DNA of 64,000 nt from Buchnera aphidicola (Chaitophorus viminalis) (GTDB lineage Bacteria > Pseudomonadota > Gammaproteobacteria > Enterobacterales > Enterobacteriaceae): assembly GCF_026122795.1 (NCBI RefSeq), contig NZ_JAIWQV010000001.1, positions 165,994 to 229,993 of the forward strand, in the 5' to 3' direction. The translations under genes were made by a program, and so were the position numbers. This document shows, in pieces, positions 40,218 to 59,788 of this stretch. Numbering within the stretch: the stretch's first letter is position 1; each line of letters begins with the position of its first letter. Below the pieces are notes generated by a model. It ran no database searches. It had not been told where the DNA came from and saw only the letters and a program-made list of their open reading frames with translations.

Positions 40218-40562
40218 TTAAATTTTTTCTTTAATTCTTGCAGATTTACCAAATTTTTTACGTAAATAATATAATTTAGACTTTCTTACGAAACCTTTAC
40301 GTTTTATAAATATATTTTCGATATTTTTAGAGTGTGTTTGAAAAACTCTTTCTACACCTTCATTGTTTGATATTTTTCTAACACAAAAAGATGATTGTAA
40401 AAATCTATTTTTTATAGAAATGACAATTCCTTCAAAAGATTGTAAACGTTTTTTAGAACCTTCTATTACCCAAACTTGTACTTCTATTGTATCTCCTGAA
40501 CGAAATTTTGGTATATTTTTTTTGATTTGTTTTTTTTCTATAATATTTAATATATTATTCAT
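40218..40562 (-). CDS. rplS: 50S ribosomal protein L19
   Basis: Large-subunit protein at the subunit interface. 114 residues (E. coli 115). [27 protein letters not shown], and [16 protein letters not shown] are typical L19 segments. Its start overlaps the trmD stop by 4 bp (ATGA), suggesting coupled translation in the ffh-rpsP-rimM-trmD-rplS operon. Confidence 0.97.
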
Positions 40563-41355
40563 TTTTTTATTTTTTCAAAATTAGTAATGTTTTTGTTTTT
40601 TAATTCAAGTATTTTTTCTAAAATTTTTTTTTCTTCATTAGTAAATTTTTTTTTTTTAAATAATTTTGGTTTTTTTAAAAAAGTAGATTCAAGAGATTTT
40701 TTTAATCTCCATTTTTTAATTTTTTTATGATTTCCTGATAAAAGAATATTAGGAACTTTCATATTATCTATAATTCTTGGTCTAGTATAATGAGGATAAT
40801 CTAATAAAGTTTTAGAAAATGAATCTTGATGTTTAATATTTTTTTTTTTAATTACATTTGGTATAAATCTACAAATTGCATCTATAAATACCATTGCTGC
40901 TAATTCACCACCTGTTAATATATAATCTCCAATAGATAATTCTTGATCTACAAATTTTTTTATAAATCTTTCATCAATACCTTGATATCTTCCACAAATT
41001 AATATTATATGTTTAATTTTAGATAAATTTTTTAAATTATATTGATTAATTTTTTTTCCTTGTGGAGATAAATAAATTATATAATATTTTTTTTTTTTAT
41101 ATATTTTATTATTGCCATTTTTAATGGAAAAAAACTCATAATCATCCCAGGACCTCCTCCATATGGTCTATCATCTATTCTTTTGTTTTTTTTTTTACTA
41201 AAATTTCTTAAATTTAATAAAGTTACATTAATAATTTTTTTTTTGATTGCTTTTGATAGAATTCCATAATTTATTATTGAATTAAACATTTCAGGAAAGA
41301 TTGTAATGATTTTAAAATTTATTAAACTTTGTTTTGTTTTTTTATTTTTTTTCAA
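40559..41355 (-). CDS. trmD: tRNA (guanine-N1)-methyltransferase TrmD, frameshifted in an A12 tract
   Basis: Methylates G37 of tRNAs with G36, preventing +1 frameshifts; essential in E. coli. The N-terminal part ([20 protein letters not shown]) runs from a TTG at 41355, with GGAGAG upstream, into an A12 tract at plus-strand 41087-41098 and then stops at 41077. One extra A in the tract restores the frame: [52 protein letters not shown], and [10 protein letters not shown] follow with no further break to 40559. The joined protein is about 265 residues (E. coli 255) with every family motif intact, so function is probably rescued by slippage; a sequencing error is also possible. Confidence 0.88.
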
Positions 41356-41358
41356 ATT

Positions 41359-41868
41359 TTATTCTCTCCAATTGACAATAATTTTTTTTTTTTTAATATG
41401 AATTCTTTTAATAATTTTTTTTTTTATAAAAGGAATGAGTATTTCTTTACAATTATTTTTTTTAACTATTAAGATATCATTTGTGTATGTTCTTAAAATT
41501 TTTACAACTATTCCTAAAAAATTTTTATTTATATTAAAAATTTTACATAATAGAATTTCATTCCAAAGATATTCATTATTTTTTTTTTGAATTTGATTGG
41601 AATAAATAAATATTTTTTTATTTGTAAACAAAGAAGCTGTATTTCTATCATTTACATTTTTTATTTTTATTAAAAAATAATTTTTTATAGATTTCCATTG
41701 AACAATTTTTAAAGAATTAATAATATTACTTTTAAAATAAAATAAAGGACTATATTTAAAAATAGATTTTTTGTTTTCAGTAAAAGAAAACATTTTGTTC
41801 CATCCTAAAATACCATAAGGTGAACAAATTTTACCTATAATTATTGGATTTAAATGTTTTTTAATCAT
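41359..41868 (-). CDS. rimM: 16S rRNA processing protein RimM
   Basis: 30S maturation factor that binds S19 and helps fold the 16S 3' domain. 169 residues (E. coli 182). IIGKICSPYGILGWNKMFSFTE matches the N-terminal RimM domain (E. coli GKIGSAYGIRGWLKV), and the PRC-barrel half ends ILIPFIKKKIIKRIHI. The middle is diverged. It is placed between rpsP (3 bp away) and trmD (3 bp away), as in E. coli. Confidence 0.92.
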   Translation of the reverse strand: MIKKHLNPIIIGKICSPYGILGWNKMFSFTENKKSIFKYSPLFYFKSNIINSLKIVQWKSIKNYFLIKIKNVNDRNTASLFTNKKIFIYSNQIQKKNNEYLWNEILLCKIFNINKNFLGIVVKILRTYTNDILIVKKNNCKEILIPFIKKKIIKRIHIKKKKIIVNWRE

Positions 41869-41871
41869 TTA

Positions 41872-42114
41872 TTATTTAACATATTTTTGAATAATTTTTT
41901 TTACTCTTTTAGAAGTTTTTCCACCAGTTTTTATCCAATATTTTAATTTTTCTAAATTTATTTTACATGAATGTAGTTTATTTTTACAAATTGGATCAAA
42001 AAATCCAATTTTTTCAATAAAACGTCCATTTCTTGCTGATCTACTATCAGTAACAATAATTTGATAAAAAGGTTTTTTGTTAGATCCATGCCTAGATAAT
42101 CTTATTTTAACCAT
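41872..42114 (-). CDS. rpsP: 30S ribosomal protein S16
   Basis: Small-subunit protein needed for 30S assembly. 80 residues (E. coli 82). MVKIRLSRHGSNKKPFYQIIVTDSRSARNGRF-type N-terminus and EKIGFFDP are diagnostic. Second gene of the ffh-rpsP-rimM-trmD-rplS run. Confidence 0.98.
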   Translation of the reverse strand: MVKIRLSRHGSNKKPFYQIIVTDSRSARNGRFIEKIGFFDPICKNKLHSCKINLEKLKYWIKTGGKTSKRVKKIIQKYVK

Positions 42115-42151: not shown

Positions 42152-43495
42152 TTATAAAATCATTTGTTTAATTTTATTAAAAAATTTTATAAATCCAATA
42201 TTTTTTATTTTTTTCATTATTTTTTTTATAGATTTAAACTGTTTTAAAAGTTTATTTACATCTTGTATTGTTGTTCCAGAACCTAATGCAATTCTTTTTT
42301 TTCTAGATATTTTAATAATATTAGGATAATTTCTTTCTTTTATAGTCATAGATTTAATTATTGATTCTATTTTTAATATCATAGAATCATTCATTTGAAA
42401 TAAAATATTATTTTTAATATTAGAACTAATTGGTAATTTTTGTAATAAAAATTTTATACTTCCAATTTTTTTAATTTGATATATTTGTTTTAAAAAGTCA
42501 TTTAAATTAAATGAATTATATTTTTTAATTTGTGTATTTAATTTATTAATATTTTTTTTACCAAATTTTTTTTTTATAGATTTTATTTCAGATAAAATAT
42601 TTTCCATTCCTAAAATTTTAGAACTAATTTTTTTTGCATTAAAAAGTTCAATATTATCAATTTTTTCTCCATTTCCAATAAATTTAATTGGAATTTCTGT
42701 TAAGTATTTTATTGATAATGCTACTCCACATCTTGTATTTGAATCTAATTTAGTGAGAAAAATACTTGTAATAAAGATATGTTTTTGAAAATTTTTAATT
42801 ATGTTTATAGAATCTTGACCAATCATTGAATCAATTACAAAAATTGTTTCTGTAGGTTGAATATATTTATTAAGACTTTGCAATTCATGCATTAATTTTT
42901 TATTAACATGTAATCTTCCCGCAGTATCTATTATTAAAATATCGTATTTTTTTATTTTAGCATATTCTATAGCTTTTTTTGAAATATCTATTGGTGTTTC
43001 TGAATTATGAGATTTAAATACATCAACTTGAATTTTAGAAGATATGATTTTTAATTGTTTTATTGCTGCAGGTCTATATATATCTGTAGATGTTACTAAA
43101 ACTTTTTTTTTAAATTTTTTTTGAAAAAAATTAGATAATTTTCCAATACTTGTAGTTTTACCTGCTCCTTGTAATCCTATGACTAAAAAAACAGATAATT
43201 TTTTGGATAAAAATTTTATAGAAGAATTTTTATTTCCAATAATTTTTATTAATTCTTTTTTAACAATTTTAACAAATTCTTGTCCAGGAGTTAAAGAATT
43301 ATTTATAACTTCTCCAATACATTTTTTTTTAATTTTTTTAATAAATTTTTTAATCACTATAAAAGAAACATCTGCTTCTAATAATGTAATTCTTATTTCT
43401 CTTAATGTTTCTTTAATATTTTGTTCTGTAATTCTTCCTCTATGAGAAATGTTTTTTATAATTTTTGTAAAGCATTTAGTTAGATTTTTAAACAT
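42152..43495 (-). CDS. ffh: Signal recognition particle protein Ffh
   Basis: GTPase of the bacterial SRP that targets nascent membrane proteins to FtsY and SecYEG. 447 residues (E. coli 453). N domain, then G1 GLQGAGKTTSIGKL near 107, DTAGRLH, TKLDSNTRCG, and the C-terminal M domain with IALGSGTTIQDVNKLLKQF. The M domain has few methionines, with Ile/Leu/Lys in their place. The 4.5S RNA gene is not in this window. Confidence 0.97.
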   Translation of the reverse strand: MFKNLTKCFTKIIKNISHRGRITEQNIKETLREIRITLLEADVSFIVIKKFIKKIKKKCIGEVINNSLTPGQEFVKIVKKELIKIIGNKNSSIKFLSKKLSVFLVIGLQGAGKTTSIGKLSNFFQKKFKKKVLVTSTDIYRPAAIKQLKIISSKIQVDVFKSHNSETPIDISKKAIEYAKIKKYDILIIDTAGRLHVNKKLMHELQSLNKYIQPTETIFVIDSMIGQDSINIIKNFQKHIFITSIFLTKLDSNTRCGVALSIKYLTEIPIKFIGNGEKIDNIELFNAKKISSKILGMENILSEIKSIKKKFGKKNINKLNTQIKKYNSFNLNDFLKQIYQIKKIGSIKFLLQKLPISSNIKNNILFQMNDSMILKIESIIKSMTIKERNYPNIIKISRKKRIALGSGTTIQDVNKLLKQFKSIKKIMKKIKNIGFIKFFNKIKQMIL

Positions 43496-43600: not shown

Positions 43601-44448
43601 TTATTTATTTTTTAATATATAAAATAACGTTTGATTATTTTTTTTATTAGAAATATTTTCTTTAAGAATATATAAGTTATAAAGTAAAGAAGATTCTTTA
43701 TTTCCTATTGCAGCAATGTATTTTTTTTTTTTTTTTGATATTTTTTTTACAGCTTCTGAGGAACTTTTTGTATATTTAATTTTTAATAAAGGAAATTTGT
43801 TTATAAATAATTGACATTGTTTAATAGGTTCTATATGACTATAAATTAATTTTATTTTTTTCAAAGAGTATTTTTTTGATGAAATGATACAATGATCAAT
43901 TGTAATAATAATGTTCTCTTTAATACAAAATTTATTTTTTTTTAATAATTCATTAGTTTCTTGAATTTTTCCAGAAGAATTATTTTGTATAGGTAAAATA
44001 GCGTATTTTGAAATGTTGTTTTTTAATTTTTTTAAAACTTGAGAAAACGTTTTACATGGAATTTCATAAAAAATTTTGTTTTTTTTTTAGCATATTTTGA
44101 AGCAGCTAAATAAGAATATGATCCTTTAGGACCTAAAAAAGACATTTTTAAAATTTTAGATTTTTTTTTTTGATAAATTTTTTTTTGAATTTTAACTGAA
44201 TTTATTATAATTGTTTGAAAAATTTTTTTTATATATTTCTCATTTAAATTATATTTTTTTCCTTTAGAAGTAATTTTTCTAAAAATTTCTTTTTCTCGAA
44301 TAGAATCTTGAATTGGATAATTACTTTTGATTTTTTCTTTAATAATTTTTTTAGAAATTAAATTCCTTTTATATAATAATTTTAAAAGAGATTTATCAAT
44401 ACAATTAATTTTTTTTCTTAATTTCAATAAATTTTTTTGATTTTTCAT
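43601..44448 (-). CDS. pheA: Chorismate mutase/prephenate dehydratase PheA, frameshifted and lacking the ACT domain
   Basis: Bifunctional enzyme of phenylalanine synthesis. The chorismate mutase domain (LLKLRKKINCIDKSLLKLL) and the start of the dehydratase domain (SFLGPKGSYSYLAASKYAKK) run into an A10 tract at plus-strand 44079-44088 and then stop at 44032. One extra A restores the frame: ILPIQNNSSGKI, ITIDHCI, LIYSHIEPIKQC, AAIGNKESS, NNQTLFYIL. The catalytic TRF motif reads TLF. The restored protein has about 282 residues against 386 in E. coli and ends where the E. coli dehydratase domain ends, so the phenylalanine-binding ACT domain is gone. Only 105 bp lie before ffh, too short to hide it. 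A sequencing error at the A10 tract cannot be excluded. Confidence 0.87.
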
Positions 44449-57620: not shown

Positions 57621-57709
57621 AATTAAATTTTCTTTTTTTTTTTAAGTTCTATTAAATTTTAAATATTATAAATTAATATTTAAAATTTGATATTTTAAGG
57701 ATATTTATT

Positions 57710-59788
57710 TTGCTCAATCCATTTATATTTAAATTTAAATATGGAAATCATATAGTAACTTTAGAAACTGGATTAATTGCTAGACAAGCAACATCTTCTA
57801 TTATGGCAAGTATAGATGATACTTCTGTACTTGTTACTGTAGTTGCACACAAAGAAGTTAAAGAAATTAAAGATTTTTTACCTTTAACTGTAAATTATCA
57901 AGAAAGAACATATGCTGCTGGGAAAATTCCAGGAGGATTTTTTAGAAGAGAAGGTCGTCCTAGTGAAAATGAAATATTAATTGGTCGTTTAATAGATAGA
58001 CCAATTCGTGCAATTTTTCCAAAAAATTTTTATAATGAAGTGCAAGTTATTGTAACTGTTGTATCATTAAATCCAAAAATTAATCCTGATATTGTTTCTA
58101 TGATTGGAGTTTCTGCTGCATTATATATTTCTGGAATACCAGTTAAAAAAATGATTGGAGCAGCAAGAATAGGTTTAATTAATAACAAATATGTTTTAAA
58201 TCCTACTACAGATGAAATGAAATTTAGTTTATTAGATTTAATAGTATCTGGTACTGATAAAAATATTTTAATGTTAGAATCAGAATCTGATCAATTAGAT
58301 AAAGAAATTATATTTAAAGGTATTTTATACGGATTTAAAAAACAAAGAAAATTAATTAAAAGTATGAAAAATTTGTTATCTTCAATAAAGAAAAAAAATT
58401 GGAAAAATTATTCTCAAAGTGTAGATGATAATCTTTATAAAAAAATTTTAAATTTATCTAAAAAAAAAATAAAAAAATATTATTGTATTTCTGATAAAAA
58501 AAAACGTTTTCAAAAGTTAAAAACATATAAAAGTAATATAATTTCTAAACTTTTAAATCAAGATTTAAACATAAATATTTTAGAAGTAAATAAAATTTTT
58601 TATGATATTGAAAAAAAAATTGTTCGAAAAAATATTTTAATTAAAAAAAAAAGAATTGATGGTAGATCGCCAGATGTTATTCGTAATTTAGATATTAAAA
58701 CTAGTGTTTTATCTAGAACTCATGGTTCTTCTTTATTTACTAGAGGAGAAACTCAATCTTTAGTTTCAGTAACATTAGGAACCTCAAGAGATGCTCAAAA
58801 TTTAGATGAATTATTAGGAGATAAAACAGATAGTTTTTTATTTCATTATAATTTTCCTCCATATTCTGTTGGAGAAATAGGTATGATTAATTCGCCTAAA
58901 AGAAGAGAAGTAGGACATGGAAAATTAGCTAAAAAGAGTATTTTAGCAGTCATGCCTTCTATAGAAATTTTTCCTTATACAATTCGTATAGTTTCTGAAA
59001 TTACTGAATCTAATGGGTCTTCTTCTATGGCTTCTGTATGTGGCGCTTCTTTAGCTTTAATGGATGCAGGAGTTCCTATTAAACAACCTATAGCTGGTGT
59101 TGCAATGGGTTTAATTAAAAAAAAAAATAATTATGTAATTTTAACAGATATATTAGGAGATGAAGATCATTTTGGAGATATGGATTTTAAAATTTCTGGA
59201 AGCATTATTGGTATCACTGCTTTACAATTGGATATGAAAACTGAAGGAATGACGTATGATATTTTACATGAAACTTTAGATAAATCTTGTAAAGCTATTA
59301 ATTTTATATTAAATGTTATGTCTAAAACAATAAATACTCCAAATAAAGAAATTTCTAAATTTGCTCCTCGTGTACATGTTATTAAAATTAATCCAGAAAA
59401 AATTAAAGATGTTATAGGAAAAGGAGGATCTATAATTCGTATGTTAACAGAAGAAACAGGAACTATAATTGAAATTGAAGATAATGGTACAGTCAAGATT
59501 TCAGCAGTCATGGAAGAAAAAGCTGAACATGCTATAAAACGTATTCAAGAGATTACATCAGATTTAGAAATAGGTAAAATATATACAGGAAAAGTAACTA
59601 GAATAGTTGATTTTGGGGCATTTATTTCTATCGGAATAGGAAAAGAAGGTTTAGTTCATATTTCTCAAATTTCTGAAAAACATATAGAAAAAGTTTCAGA
59701 TTATTTAAAATTAAATCAAATTGTTAAAGTAAAAGTTTTAGATATAGATAGACAAAAAAGATTAAGATTAAGTATGAAAAAAATTTAA
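57710..59788 (+). CDS. pnp: Polynucleotide phosphorylase
   Basis: Phosphorolytic 3'-5' RNA exonuclease, core of the degradosome. 692 residues (E. coli 711). First RNase PH domain ([27 protein letters not shown] region), helical linker, second RNase PH domain ([41 protein letters not shown]), KH domain ([16 protein letters not shown] near 562) and S1 domain ([15 protein letters not shown]). The start is a TTG with AAGGA 8 nt upstream, and the N-terminus MLNPF aligns with E. coli MLNPI, which is also UUG-started. The unstructured C-tail is missing. Confidence 0.97.

Follow-up and report, generated by a model that had tools for sequence, protein, structure and literature searches.

Frameshifts in poly(A) tracts of Buchnera and Blochmannia genes are reportedly rescued by RNA polymerase slippage, as Tamas and colleagues are said to have described in PNAS in 2008. 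In an RNA study of Buchnera, 151 of 157 transcription insertions were located in homopolymers, compared with 16 of 57 deletions, and the insertion rate climbed with run length up to 11 (PMC5574713). The rescue precedent, which an earlier note on this DNA had cited, is supported by a review that gives 12–50% corrected transcripts for poly(A) rescue (PMC5009743), and eight frameshifted genes, including dnaX, dnaG, and pth, are reported for Blochmannia vafer (PMC3017870). Two further systems relevant here are the programmed −1 frameshifting of dnaX and the +1 autoregulation of RF2 (prfB), whose product controls frameshifting in its own gene.

The window, by which we mean the whole stretch of 64,000 nucleotides that was analysed, carries a trmD gene whose reading frame is broken at a tract of 12 A (A12). 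TrmD, regarded as an essential enzyme, introduces m1G37, the modification that holds ribosomes in the reading frame. Like the poly(A)-rescued genes of Buchnera and Blochmannia, trmD is an otherwise intact housekeeping gene with a single indel in a long A tract, located in an AT-rich, insect-symbiont-like genome; it is under purifying selection behind the break, and the break is kept across related lineages. Unlike the known rescued genes, it encodes a tRNA methyltransferase regarded as essential, its break is common to three species, and a second tract is broken in five relatives. With dnaX, the trmD tract shares an A-rich slippery run and the direction of the shift, but it has neither a stem-loop nor a nearby Shine-Dalgarno-like element, and in trmD the shift would be required for any full-length product. 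The best explanation is that the A12 tract of trmD is a new, well-conserved case of the published poly(A)-rescue phenomenon, in an essential enzyme. No report of a frame-broken trmD was found in the covered literature on trmD with Buchnera, endosymbionts, or m1G37 autoregulation, a coverage that left most subscription papers outside.

The genome containing the window (G000) comprises 466.8 kb in 6 contigs and is 99.36% complete, and the GC content of the window is about 18%. On the minus strand, the genes are arranged in the order 447-aa ORF, rpsP, rimM, trmD, and rplS, of which the last four were named by profile match; the 447-aa ORF is presumably ffh, judging from its sequence. The features of the locus are as follows.

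41087..41098, minus strand: A12 tract that breaks the trmD frame (T12 on the plus strand)
41077..41355, minus strand: 5′ part of trmD, an ORF of 92 aa with TTG as first codon, matching TIGR00088 profile positions 2–74
40559..41098, minus strand: 3′ part of trmD in another frame, spanning 179 aa between the tract and the trmD stop, matching TIGR00088 profile positions 77–231
41064..41106, minus strand: 43-base block around the A12 tract, identical in G000, G010, and G008
41235..41244, minus strand: A10 tract of trmD ("site 1"), in frame in the window and the break site in five other genomes of the genus
41359..41868, minus strand: rimM, an intact control gene located upstream in the same operon (TIGR02273, 133.3 bits, cut-off 66.2)
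41872..42114, minus strand: rpsP (ribosomal protein S16), control gene (TIGR00002)
40218..40562, minus strand: rplS (ribosomal protein L19), downstream, control gene (TIGR01024)
42152..43495, minus strand: open reading frame of 447 aa upstream of rpsP

Elsewhere in the same genome, leuA is located at G000:C1:25646-27130 on an 83-kb contig; its nearest matches are small leucine plasmids of Buchnera, which accounts for 64 of the 83 records matched, with DNA identities of 72.5–77.1% among the 12 matches listed. The first 8 kb of contig C6 matched 12 records, none of them tallied as Buchnera, with Candidatus Stammera best at 65%. Both searches covered a collection of plasmid records.

The 5′ frame of trmD ends at a TAA stop at 41079-41077, which starts at the 8th base beyond A12, and the 3′ frame, beginning at the tract, stays open up to the gene's end. 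The earlier note had claimed that trmD is intact except at this tract and that the two frames join to a full TrmD when one A is added or two are removed, and this holds: the joined protein scored 298.8 bits against TIGR00088 (curated cut-off 195), its residues 15–249 were matched to solved TrmD structures (E 1e-75), and it contains no further internal stop. The halves scored lower when taken separately, with 83 bits for the N half and 205.8 bits, slightly above the cut-off, for the C half, which reached 199.6 bits against NF000648 and thus stayed below the cut-off of 220. The two frames together give a complete TrmD, a putative methyltransferase acting on G37. A search of the genome with the C half as the query returned one trmD match, and no second copy was found. 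The break is real, and it is not a product of chance, since at a GC content of about 18% the C-terminal frame runs through 179 codons without a stop, and two more species likewise have this tract out of phase.

These two species, G010 and G008, are the nearest to G000, with trmD DNA identities of 91% and 89%; both contain the A12 tract, with the trmD frame disrupted in the same phase as in G000. When 40 kb of the three genomes were aligned, 76.9% of the columns were identical, and the tract was located inside an invariant run of 43 bases, which tied for rank 19–20 among 5195 runs, and several of the longer runs resemble tRNA genes by eye. Among the 31 ungapped A10+ tracts of G000, it had the longest invariant context, the runner-up having 25 bases. 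Ten of these 31 tracts, compared on the same strand, were invariant, and 8 of 54 A10+ tracts had one length in all three species, tracts interrupted by substitutions being scored as different. Because the 43-base block partly encodes the IYLSP motif, its invariance partly reflects protein constraint and is not pure evidence for a signal. The longest invariant block of the alignment has 100 bases and lies at 57690-57789 of the window.

Tracts of A10+ numbered 71 in G000, 54 in G010, and 48 in G008 in the 45 genes compared per genome, and only trmD, at the A12 tract, was called broken in each, in a scan that is blind to genes broken in every genome, such as pheA. Apart from the break, the trmD segment at A12 had a constant length in the seven genus genomes measured. 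Most simply, the break would have arisen once, before G000 split from its two nearest relatives, and would then have been kept.

Since all three species share the break, the differences behind A12 post-date it, provided that it had a single origin. The dN/dS values behind the tract were 0.18 (G000-G010), 0.29 (G000-G008), and 0.22 (G010-G008), indicating purifying selection, in a comparison of the kind that the earlier note had proposed for other strains. For the same pairs in the same order, the values were 0.38, 0.40, and 0.33 for rimM, 0.09, 0.09, and 0.11 for rplS, and 0.14, 0.10, and 0.19 for rpsP. The synonymous changes behind A12 numbered 15, 14, and 25, compared with neutral means of 5.2, 5.4, and 9.7, and the observed counts were reached in none of 2000 neutral simulations for any of the three pairs, in a rough simulation whose substitution types were drawn from selected genes. 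The absence of stops alone is weaker evidence, because 188, 89, and 17 of the 2000 simulations were also stop-free; the one "stop" counted for G010-G008 is a step within a codon with multiple changes and is present in neither sequence. The earlier note had read selection from the lack of other decay, an argument that is too weak by itself; the sharing of the break by three species is stronger. Purifying selection behind A12 was found among the three species, and the frame is therefore presumably still decoded. Both halves of trmD are under continuing selection. The earlier proposal is thus partly supported: continuing selection and a tract-based rescue are both strengthened by the three-species conservation, the low dN/dS, and the synonymous excess over 2000 simulations, and the transcripts with 13 or 10 A that the note supposed are a prediction. 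We infer the single origin, the slippage itself, its rate, and the sufficiency of the enzyme made.

The break is not peculiar to this strain. In the genus of 11 genomes, breaks were called by frameshift-aware protein-to-DNA alignment, and trmD was frame-broken in 8 of the 11. Each break was located at one or the other of two A tracts, in no genome at both, and the direction was the same throughout. The A12 tract is the broken one in G000, G010, and G008, and a second tract, some 48 codons further upstream, is the broken one in G007, G006, G001 (A10), G002 (A11), and G003 (A13); this second tract is also out of frame in G219 of another genus (locus L124). The gene is open through both tracts in G009, G004, and G005, with G009 being scored as intact despite a weak C-terminal call at residue 217, which was left uncounted together with similar weak calls in G212, G219, and G127. 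In G004, no in-frame ATG, GTG, or TTG occurs from the last upstream stop to the FPEM motif (locus L019), which may point to a non-standard start or to an additional break close to the 5′ end. In a tree of four operon proteins with 17 outgroup genomes, G005 and then G004 with G009 were basal, and both broken groups were inside. Because the bootstrap support was weak (37 for joining G001 to the second broken group and 44 for the adjacent grouping), two or three origins of the break in the genus are possible.

Other genes of the homologous neighbourhoods were also broken at A tracts, namely those matching references of 1158 aa, 352 aa, and 220 aa, which by eye we take to be recB, prfB, and rlmE, as well as pheA. 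Single frameshifts with an A10+ tract at the break or no more than 12 bases away numbered 18, and every one had the same direction as in trmD, so they could be corrected by a transcript with one extra A or by a −1 shift of the ribosome. In G007, the 1158-aa reference showed two adjacent +1 steps at one A11, summing to the same phase, and three more breaks were located away from A10+ tracts, two of them +1. The genus scan covered 59 of 155 reference ORFs after the removal of overlapping ones, and the scan of frameshift direction was restricted to ORFs among them with a length of 120 aa or more; the score limits removed frameshifts close to gene ends, some reference ORFs carried spurious upstream extensions, and G003 was covered for only 30 kb.

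As a separate observation, every one of the 11 genus genomes had a broken reading frame in pheA (window 43601-44448; loci L199 and L202-L211), with the breaks falling at two or more positions; they were of the −1 type in 10 genomes and of the +1 type in G005, and the gene was intact in five relatives outside the genus, with open frames of 382–394 codons.

The family-wide sample contained 112 genomes: the 11 genus genomes, 27 of the 30 best loci (the other three being genus members), and 74 loci from 76 searched genomes, which were selected at a listed size of up to 0.9 Mb; among the 27, G018 was listed at 2.0 Mb. Frameshifts were found in trmD in 13 of 112 genomes, in rimM in 6 of 103, in rplS in 0 of 111, and in rpsP in 0 of 112. 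Ten of the trmD breaks were of the poly(A) type (eight in the genus, G219, and G236), all in one direction, and three were of the +1 type. The six rimM breaks were all of the −1 type, four of them at A10+ tracts and two at the same residue 30, and they came from six genera with one genome each, whereas trmD breaks were shared between species. The genus contained 34 A10+ tracts in trmD and 27 in rimM, compared with one in rplS (10 genomes) and one in rpsP (11 genomes). Exposure, measured as the number of A10+ tracts, therefore explains much of the difference between trmD and rimM and the ribosomal-protein genes; with one such tract each, the zero breaks in rplS and rpsP reveal little about poly(A). 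The view of trmD as a unique frameshift hot spot is not supported, rimM with its 6 in 103 having roughly as many separate frameshifts among the family genomes sampled. Likewise, a preference for poly(A) over poly(T) was not inferred, since the scanned genes, which were roughly delimited, contained 739 sense-strand A10+ tracts versus 38 T10+ tracts. A trmD match was absent in two small family genomes, G126 and G287, for which loss or incomplete assembly are the alternatives. Separately, four 300-kb genomes of one genus have a TGA at aligned residue 200 of trmD, one of them also at residue 31 (L119, L144, L170, L171), and TGA is possibly read as an amino acid there.

With a probability of roughly 0.7, trmD is a working gene that is out of frame at the poly(A) tract in the DNA, the frame being restored when the gene is expressed. 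RNA polymerase would slip on A12 and add one A in part of the transcripts; these would yield full-length TrmD, and the unslipped transcripts would yield an N-terminal stub of 92 aa. The same full-length product could also receive a contribution from ribosomal −1 slippage on A AAA AAA. The tract encodes a Lys-rich stretch, and the protein may fold, and suffer no harm, with a few lysines more or fewer, because the closest solved relative shows a single gap in the alignment, being two residues longer a few residues before A12. Breaks that are corrected by insertion can persist, because Buchnera transcription, according to the study cited above, inserts in A/T homopolymers and deletes there much less. 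The direction alone does not prove rescue, because A tracts that mutate mainly by deletion would produce breaks of this direction as well. Together, the direction and the selection behind the break argue for rescue.

Alternatively, the frame may be corrected mainly by the ribosome, through −1 slippage of tRNALys on A AAA AAA, with an mRNA that is faithful at 12 A. Polymerase and ribosomal −1 slippage give the same protein and are inseparable by sequence; A12 contains the slippery heptamer (A AAA AAN), a −1 shift yields exactly the observed protein, and the one direction of the 10 poly(A)-type breaks among the 112 genomes agrees with such a shift. We nevertheless consider mainly ribosomal correction unlikely. 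The 111 nt around A12 fold like their shuffles (z −0.83, with 38 of 200 shuffles at least equal), and a programmed −1 element with a stem-loop was rejected on this ground. A dnaX-like Shine-Dalgarno element needs short spacing to the slippery run, and the sole GGAG/AGGA in the preceding 70 bases begins 62 bases upstream, which is too far. Moreover, the effect measured in Buchnera is RNA polymerase slippage (PMC5574713). Far less probable is that trmD is dead, i.e., a recent pseudogene, with m1G37 being either unnecessary or provided by the host. Loss may perhaps be possible, as trmD was unfound in G126 and G287, whose contigs may be incomplete, and the Blochmanniella trmD is reported in PMC12779916 to be under weak constraint (dN/dS 0.69). 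Against a dead gene stand the selection behind the break in the three sharing species, the lack of an internal stop, and the identical break kept across species; the dN/dS also speaks against a shared, slowly decaying pseudogene, which could in principle exist. Serratia symbiotica SCc and STs are reported to have kept trmD in their small genomes (PMC5013485), and E. coli is described as depending on m1G37 for survival (PMC4519876).

Long A tracts are generally error-prone, so the break might be an assembly or sequencing artefact at the homopolymer. However, three species show the identical tract and phase in their assemblies, and the other A10+ genes among the 45 compared per genome were left unbroken (pheA being outside this comparison), which makes an artefact highly improbable. 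The idea that two separately started polypeptides assemble into a split TrmD is the least credible, with only the openness of both halves in its favour. The 3′ frame offers no ATG, GTG, or TTG before the ATG at 40894, which lies past the SIGDY motif and well within the enzyme, and a split would be hard to tolerate within the SAM-binding, knotted domain, inside which the A12 break falls.

The three +1-type breaks in trmD, in G016 (L117), G182 (L145), and G296 (L172), were all located at CCC-A, and in each case the remainder of TrmD continues in the +1 frame. G016 and G182 share the break site, CGT CCC AAG or CGC CCC AAG, where the intact congener G269 has CGC CCA AGA, and the site of G296 is ATT CCC AGG. 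These putative breaks were read from assemblies, which may carry insertion errors in C runs. In the compared stretches of G016, G182, G269, and G296, with 53, 51, 55, and 11 genes compared, respectively, these trmD sites were the only isolated +1-type breaks, and five isolated −1-type breaks were seen; one seemingly decayed ORF of G269 was omitted. Its homologue in G016 is a gene of 1025 aa, and the G269 copy contains 14 frameshift steps (L179-L183). The CCC-A break was present in 2 of 3 genomes of one genus (G016 and G182) and in 1 of 4 of the other (G296). In the operon tree, G269 grouped with G016 with a support of 95; because G016 and G182 are thus not sisters, either two gains or one loss of the break is implied. 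By count, trmD breaks had at least six origins, two in the genus and one each in the lineages of G219, G236, G016/G182, and G296.

According to PMC4519876, CCC is read by tRNAPro(UGG), which is prone to a +1 shift that m1G37 suppresses, the sequence described there being CCC-C. Hence a loop can be imagined at the CCC-A sites, in which low TrmD would lead to less m1G37, tRNAPro would slip +1, and readthrough of trmD would increase. We hypothesize that trmD may in this way possibly regulate itself by an RF2-like feedback, with the likeness to RF2 being one of pattern only, namely a product controlling frameshifting in its own gene. More broadly, and with considerable doubt, trmD breaks might be maintained rather than merely tolerated, the gene having become repeatedly frameshift-dependent in reduced symbionts so as to cap or regulate TrmD, with the CCC-A loop operating in G016, G182, and G296. 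For the A12 tract, only the part concerning maintenance applies, and the CCC-A loop does not. Unlike RF2, A12 needs the opposite shift, at Lys codons, and tRNALys is not a TrmD substrate.

For the annotation of such genomes, the case means that a live trmD could automatically be called dead. If real, the CCC-A cases would represent a guardian of the reading frame that is controlled by the very error it prevents. That three species keep trmD out of frame at A12, and that 8 of the 11 genus genomes have the gene out of frame, suggests how far slippage during expression may reach for an essential function in AT-rich symbionts.
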